Positions 9,125-10,269 of a DNA stretch of 64,000 bases are shown here, one piece after another. The DNA comes from Candidatus Gastranaerophilales bacterium (GTDB lineage Bacteria; Cyanobacteriota; Vampirovibrionia; Gastranaerophilales; Gastranaerophilaceae): positions 1-64,000 of the forward strand of contig CANRMD010000002.1 of the NCBI GenBank assembly GCA_947631645.1, given 5' to 3'. The position numbers and the translations under genes are program-made. Within the stretch, counting starts at the first letter, position 1. The number at the start of each line of letters is the position of its first letter. A model generated the notes under the pieces. It was not told where the DNA came from, did no database searches, and saw only the letters and a list, made by a program, of their open reading frames with translations.

Positions 9125-9718
9125 ATGAACCGAATATTAGTAAAATTAATATGTGCTTTTATTCCGTCAGCCGAATTAAGAAGAAGAGTCAGAACAAAAT
9201 TAAAAGAAAAACCTTATATAAAAAATAAATATTACGGCAAAATATATATTCCTTATACTAATAACATAATTTTTCGTAAAAAAGAAGAATATGATTACGG
9301 AAATAATAATGTATATAACAAATATGGCGAAAAACTTGAAGTTTTTTTCTTAAGAGATTTTACAGGTGTTCATAATCCGTACGATTACCATAAATATATT
9401 ATGTTTGACAGATTTAATATAGGTTTGGATAAACATTTTTATTCAAATGGTACAATGCTGGAAACTATGGGAAATCCAAAAGAAAGATACGGTTTTTTTA
9501 ATGAATCCGAATCAATAATTCCTGAAGATTTTAAAATTTTTGATACTCACAAAGGATTAGAAAAAGATTTTGATTTAATTTTCACTTTTAGTGCAAAAAT
9601 ATTAGATAAAATTGATAATGCCATATTTATTCCGTTTTGTTCATCTGTATGGGATTATAATTATGAAACTGAAGAATTATACGTAAAACTCCCTATAAAT
9701 TCTTATGGGGGGGGGTAA
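9125..9718 (+). CDS. N-terminal part of a GT10 fucosyltransferase-like gene, stopped after a poly-G tract
   Basis: This open frame ends with three Gly codons made of nine G, followed at once by TAA. One extra G (or two fewer) would read through with GTA AAA CAT into the frame at 9784-10269 and give a single protein of about 381 residues. The fragment begins with a hydrophobic stretch (ILVKLICAFIP) and a basic RRRVRTKLK segment, typical of cytoplasmic sugar transferases attached to the inner membrane face. As read, the fragment lacks the donor-binding part and should be inactive. The arrangement matches phase-variable fucosyltransferases known from other bacteria. A sequencing or assembly error in the G run must be excluded. 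Confidence 0.7.
   Translation: MNRILVKLICAFIPSAELRRRVRTKLKEKPYIKNKYYGKIYIPYTNNIIFRKKEEYDYGNNNVYNKYGEKLEVFFLRDFTGVHNPYDYHKYIMFDRFNIGLDKHFYSNGTMLETMGNPKERYGFFNESESIIPEDFKIFDTHKGLEKDFDLIFTFSAKILDKIDNAIFIPFCSSVWDYNYETEELYVKLPINSYGGG
9707..9715 (+). repeat. Homopolymer of nine G inside the glycosyltransferase gene
   Basis: A run of nine G is exceptional in this AT-rich window. With nine G the upstream frame stops at TAA (9716-9718). With eight it stops four codons after the tract. With ten or seven it joins the downstream frame. Slipped-strand mispairing at such tracts is a known ON/OFF switch for surface-sugar genes. Confidence 0.9.
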
Positions 9719-9783
9719 AACATTATAACTTAAATACTTTAGAAAAAACTAAAAATATTTCTATAGTTTCTTCCGATAAGTTA

Positions 9784-10269
9784 TTGTGTGATTTGCATAA
9801 ATATCGTTACGACCTTGCAATGAAATGTAAAAGAGAAAATCTTGCAGATACATTCGGAACTTTTGACGGAGGAAGTATGGTTCCTCTTTCAGATACACTC
9901 AGAAACTACAGATTTACTATTTGTATTGAAAATGATATTCAACCTTATTTTTATACGGAACGTATAACAACAGCTTTTCTTTGTAAAACTGTTCCTATTT
10001 ATTTAGGTGCTACTGAAATTGATAAAATTTTTAACCCTGACGGAATTATTAAGCTTAATACTAAAGATGATATTTACAAAGTTCTAAAACAATGCACAAA
10101 AGAAGAGTATGAAAGAAGATTACCGGCCATAGAAGAAAATTTTCAAATTGCTAAGAAGCATTGCAATTTTATGGATTTTATATATGTTAATTATTTAAAA
10201 AATAAGCAACAATATAAAAAAGAAAGTATTGAAGACTTTGTTATCAGATTGAAAAATTTCAAAGGCTGA
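9784..10269 (+). CDS. C-terminal catalytic part of the GT10 fucosyltransferase-like gene
   Basis: The frame is open from the G tract at 9715. The TTG at 9784 is only the first possible start and has no good ribosome binding site. The sequence carries the GT10 donor-binding signature: FTICIEND, then YFYTERITTAFL and TVPIYLGATEI, then a phenylalanine-asparagine-glycine run (FNPDGIIKL). This matches alpha-1,3/1,4-fucosyltransferase C-terminal domains, which bind GDP-fucose. It should be expressed only as the second half of a read-through protein with the 9125-9718 frame. Substrate identity beyond the family is not provable here. The gene sits alone between the chemosensory genes and ThrS. Confidence 0.75.
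   Translation: MCDLHKYRYDLAMKCKRENLADTFGTFDGGSMVPLSDTLRNYRFTICIENDIQPYFYTERITTAFLCKTVPIYLGATEIDKIFNPDGIIKLNTKDDIYKVLKQCTKEEYERRLPAIEENFQIAKKHCNFMDFIYVNYLKNKQQYKKESIEDFVIRLKNFKG

Follow-up and report, generated by a model that had tools for sequence, protein, structure and literature searches.

A poly-G tract holds a GT10 gene at its OFF length

The window analysed here, a 64,000-nucleotide stretch of DNA from a metagenome-assembled genome (MAG), carries on its forward strand a GT10 fucosyltransferase-like gene that is very probably a translational contingency locus. Its poly-G tract is one of some 39 in this genome, which fall into two classes. As the initial annotation had it, the gene is split by a run of nine G, which occupies exactly positions 9707-9715 within a stretch (9701-9724) that reads TCT TAT GGGGGGGGG TAA AAC ATT. 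The N-terminal open reading frame (9125-9718, 197 amino acids) has 194 codons ahead of the tract (9125-9706) and is terminated by the TAA directly 3' of it (9716-9718). The C-terminal frame (9715-10269) remains open to 10269 with no further stop, and bears the motifs FTICIEND, TERITTAF and TVPIYLGAT. Computing the frame for each tract length gave 183 codons read past the tract with seven or ten G, three codons with eight or eleven, and none with nine, exactly the pattern first proposed: an immediate TAA at nine G, a stop within four codons at eight and fusion of the two frames at seven or ten. The tract is a homopolymer longer than chance in which a change of one unit toggles the frame and, at the nine G read from this one MAG assembly, the gene is OFF in the assembled sequence. 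The layout of an OFF contingency locus, already suggested for this gene, follows from the frame computation and is strengthened by the roughly 39 tracts of the genome, many of them in surface-type genes and one of them present in two lengths.

The identity of the gene rests on two matches. Its C-terminal part matches the Pfam family Glyco_transf_10 (PF00852, 6.8e-6) at 26.3 bits against a curated cut-off of 23.9; this GT10 domain, with the donor-binding motif, lies at 9796-10062 and also relates to the fucosyltransferase 5zoi. The read-through protein matches the Helicobacter pylori alpha-1,3-fucosyltransferase 2nzw, its closest solved relative, across the donor motif (phmmer, E 4e-6). An AlphaFold model of the read-through protein, built from a two-row alignment, had a pLDDT of 32 and was not used.

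The further claim that the cell switches a fucosylated surface structure goes beyond these matches. In the MAG, which is 94% complete, the best match to Gmd reached 73 bits, compared with 383-577 bits in 16 of 40 congeners, and an L-fucokinase/GDP-fucose pyrophosphorylase (FKP) was not found there either; because of these two results, fucose as the donor is a guess. The GDP-fucose genes may sit in the missing 6% of the MAG, or the donor may be another GDP-sugar.

The genome carries a distinct population of long G tracts

A pattern search of the whole 1.87-Mb genome retrieved 39 runs of at least eight G (8-11). Counting G/C runs by length in 238 kb of sequence gave 314 of length 4, 55 of 5, 1 of 6, 0 of 7 and 39 of 8-11. 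These stretches had been selected for their tracts, a selection of which the near-empty gap at 6-7 is independent; the distribution has a second mode at 9-10. The window alone holds 81 G/C runs of length 4, 11 of length 5, none of 6-8 and one of nine, and a first-order model predicts 0.02 runs of nine or more in it. The description of the run as extreme for such an AT-rich genome thus stands as far as chance expectation goes; the run is not unique, being one of 39. A canonical MutS is encoded in the window, so that loss of MutS does not explain the tracts or their slippage. A poly-G artefact of two-colour sequencing was rejected, since the tracts are bordered on either side by coherent coding or promoter sequence.

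In the assembled sequence, about 12 of the 39 tracts leave their genes in frame (ON), and at least four tract genes are OFF but open at another length. Both counts are approximations: they depend on predicted start sites, and several of the SGNH-like assignments are weak or come from sequence inspection only. The ON genes encode hexapeptide acyltransferases, a formyltransferase, an ATP-grasp/HAD protein, FkbM and other methyltransferases, SGNH-type proteins (SGNH-esterase), a radical SAM enzyme and a PIG-L deacetylase. The OFF genes include this GT10, an OafA-type acyltransferase (contig C59) and two Pmp-like proteins (C6 and C50).

These counts bear on the alternative that ranks next, although it is improbable: that an assembly or sequencing error has shortened or lengthened a run of truly ten (or seven) G, so that the gene is intact and always on. 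The locus comes from one MAG; no indel error is commoner than a wrong homopolymer length, and a one-base change would open the frame. Many of the other 8-11 G tracts in the same genome are, however, in frame, and tract calling is therefore not generally wrong; moreover, the orthologue in a genome of the same genus (G035) has a G tract in the same linker and is likewise out of frame at its own tract. Runs of this kind in 39 places are biology and not error, even if one length is wrong.

Several further tract arrangements were seen. At C1:44245-47243 (L009:4246-7244), three consecutive genes, encoding the hexapeptide acyltransferase, the formyltransferase and the ATP-grasp/HAD protein, each have a poly-C tract 65-90 nt ahead of the stop, and each overlaps the next open reading frame by about 10 nt or abuts it; a change in length would alter the C-terminus, as proposed for Helicobacter canadensis. 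The two Pmp-like genes (L016, C6:44001-46952; L035, C50:3-521), both out of frame as assembled, begin alike, with MKKIKPV at the N-terminus and then, no more than a dozen codons into the gene, a poly-C tract. This layout resembles that of the pmp genes of Chlamydia, which undergo poly-G/C phase variation. At C34:2622-2631 (L030), a G10 tract precedes an undecaprenyl diphosphate synthase-like gene by 76 bp; a gene for an exported protein of 493 amino acids, in divergent orientation, lies 43 bp from the tract, which may control either of the two.

Both halves of the GT10 gene are conserved

A homologue from a roe deer rumen MAG (RGIG4980), which has no G tract, matches the gene at 50% identity, and its alignment to the N-terminal frame shows 54%; relative to this homologue, third codon positions are the most divergent. 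For the part after the tract, a comparison over 77 codons with the G035 copy (G035:C8) gave a dN of 0.16 and a dS of 0.88 (dN/dS about 0.2), indicating purifying constraint on the C-terminal frame. Both halves are therefore conserved as coding sequence against homologues, and no second stop or frameshift is present on either side. In a multiple alignment, the linker that hosts the tract appears as an 18-codon insertion (residues 177-194, 9653-9706), placed between the two halves and immediately 5' of the tract, and missing from all four aligned homologues.

It is very unlikely, on this evidence, that the gene is a decaying pseudogene broken by chance at the G run. Such a reading could draw on the single frame break in one genome and on the rarity of the gene in the genus, where only 6 of 41 genomes gave any match. 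Neither side has a further stop or frameshift, however, and the part after the break is still constrained, so the gene does not look decaying; the break also coincides with a tract whose length is the one preferred for switching. Homologues in the sister species are consistent with a contingency locus instead. One genome (G027) has two GT10 homologues with tracts near the 5' end, another (G016) has a tract shortly ahead of the start ATG, and the tracts in the congeners' homologues are G9 or G10. These differing positions indicate that tracts were acquired repeatedly, a pattern that, judged from the sequences, selection for switching within the GT10 family would be expected to give.

A second class of tracts lies in a compact promoter

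Many of the intergenic tracts fit the pattern TTGC-N3-G(n)-TAAAAGTGG-TATAAT, with an ATG about 28 nt beyond. At 67 such loci of the genus, n ranges from 8 to 12, TTG stands exactly 7 nt 5' of the run in 54, and the gap between run and TATAAT is 9 nt in 61; since the loci were picked by a TATAAT 8-11 nt from eight G, this gap is partly constrained by the search, while the TTG position is not. The spacer measures 18-21 bp in 62 of the 63 loci having TTG in place. Genus-wide, G8-N8-11-TATAAT matches 130 times (overlapping matches included), and the reversed pattern 10 times. The porA-type arrangement, a homopolymer between -35 and -10 at fixed distances, is thus found in this class and not at the GT10 tract.

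No conservation was seen upstream of the -35 element, and seven proteins encoded downstream of promoter tracts in the genome itself had at most weak similarity to one another (two pairs, 27-29% identity). The promoter class is accordingly a compact promoter with the spacer, i.e. the number of G, as its main variable, and by analogy with porA the spacer length would tune transcription. When 288 genomes of the family (41 genera) were tested, the strict motif was found in six, all of this genus, which identifies the module as genus-specific, whereas tracts are family-wide. None was found in IMG/VR viral contigs, giving no evidence of phage carriage of the module.

A multicopy family of 165 amino acids (MNENK...PEQVV...RAYGLFDSETGTQV) adjoins promoter-type tracts, with HigBA-like and XRE genes interspersed. 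Copies are located at L020:2860-3354, L022 (C13:38376-38870), L027 (C19:32396-32884), L032:220-714 and L032:3201-3695, in surroundings that look like a cassette or mobile island.

Tract length differs at another locus

Two contigs of the MAG, C39 (L050, reverse strand from 2132) and C43 (L051:6-13506), were assigned to one and the same genome bin. Over 13.5 kb they are 99.67% identical, with a tract of G9 in one and G11 in the other. Their differences are limited to one end and the neighbourhood of the tract, about 10 kb downstream of the tract being identical. They are most likely two cell lineages of one population, or else a recent duplication; in either case the tract has changed length. 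This pair is the only direct evidence of tract instability and concerns a locus other than GT10.

A length difference in DNA, together with the promoter-class tracts, where frame is irrelevant and only a change in DNA length could act, leaves little probability for the idea that RNA polymerase or ribosomes slip through the run to give steady low expression rather than ON/OFF switching, even though poly-A transcriptional slippage is reported in Buchnera (PMC2831843) and the linker would probably tolerate extra glycines.

Distribution in the lineage

The MAG (1.87 Mb, 30.6% GC) has chemotaxis genes and a rumen relative. Its RpoB scored 1438-1457 bits with the cyanobacterial polymerases 8syi, 8gzg and 8h3v, and 1266 with the next polymerase. 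The 16S motif CYA359F was found in none of 117 genomes, a search run without a positive control on assemblies from which 16S is possibly absent. The order is likely Gastranaerophilales, non-photosynthetic gut relatives of cyanobacteria.

Within the genus, the number of tracts per genome varies from 0 to 121; across the family, tracts are present in 251 of 288 genomes (range 0-179), and the sister families of the order, from which few genomes were sampled, have few. Tract counts in other cyanobacterial families were set aside, many of those genomes being larger and presumably GC-richer. Genome size or general composition is unlikely to be the cause, since congeners of similar size range from 0-3 tracts (G011, G015, G019 and G020) to 121 (G017).

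Discussion

We propose that replication slippage at the G9 tract would add or remove G. At seven or ten G, the N-terminal acceptor half and the C-terminal donor half would be read as one protein of 380/381 residues (ON), while at 8, 9 or 11 G the ribosome would stop within four codons and no donor domain would be made (OFF). The GT10-type enzyme most likely decorates a glycan, presumably at the cell surface, and switching would yield a mixed population, from which the cell may benefit. The tracts of the genome would act in two ways: in frame, within surface-sugar and outer-membrane genes, or as the -35/-10 spacer of a common promoter.

The closest known parallel is with the alpha-1,3-fucosyltransferases futA and futB of H. 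pylori, GT10 enzymes under poly-C phase variation (PMC2583950). There too a G/C homopolymer in the coding sequence sets the ON or OFF frame, and silent and active copies coexist. The futA/futB genes, however, have their C-tract at the 5' end and are known to yield Lewis antigens, whereas here the tract occupies a mid-gene linker between the two halves, the MAG lacks detectable Gmd and FKP, and the host is a probable cyanobacterial relative. At the genome level, the set resembles the phasomes of H. canadensis (PMC2823697) and Campylobacter, small genomes with about 20-30 tracts each. Most of those tracts are poly-G; they occur in promoters as well as in glycosyl, methyl and deacetylase genes, in some cases towards the 3' end of the gene, as here. 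The present set differs in belonging to an unrelated phylum and in that many promoter tracts share one conserved promoter sequence. As discussed in PMC7864442, poly-G lies between -35 and -10 of porA in Neisseria meningitidis, where its length alters the spacing, and in promoters of tpr/tp0126 in Treponema pallidum. Those tracts are likewise inside promoters; unlike them, the compact promoter described here drives many largely unrelated genes.

Slipped-strand poly-G phase variation is a known mechanism; the lineage-wide scale and the common promoter module are new to the open-access literature searched. A text search of that literature retrieved no relevant paper on phase variation in Gastranaerophilales/Melainabacteria, which is weak evidence of absence.

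Why phase variation at multiple loci should seem confined to pathogens is a major open question according to a 2025 review (PMC11868660), which proposes database bias as an answer. An uncultured gut family whose genomes each hold dozens of tracts would speak for such bias, and the question becomes testable with existing metagenome reads. In practical terms, a gene 'broken' at a G run in a MAG of this kind should not be labelled a pseudogene, and surface variation relevant to studies of phage, immunity and host range may be masked when these bacteria are represented by consensus MAGs.

Gut cyanobacterial relatives, probably Gastranaerophilales, thus seem to have evolved, independently of the well-known pathogens, some of the largest poly-G repertoires known (up to 179 tracts per genome), with both frame and promoter-spacer switches. 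One genus would in addition use a compact 'switchable promoter', about 65 bp long, before many largely unrelated genes; we consider this probable, though less secure than the reading of the GT10 gene itself. Altogether, the tract set of the MAG and the hundreds of tracts in its relatives suggest random ON/OFF switching of surface genes throughout the lineage, comparable to that in pathogens such as Helicobacter and Neisseria.
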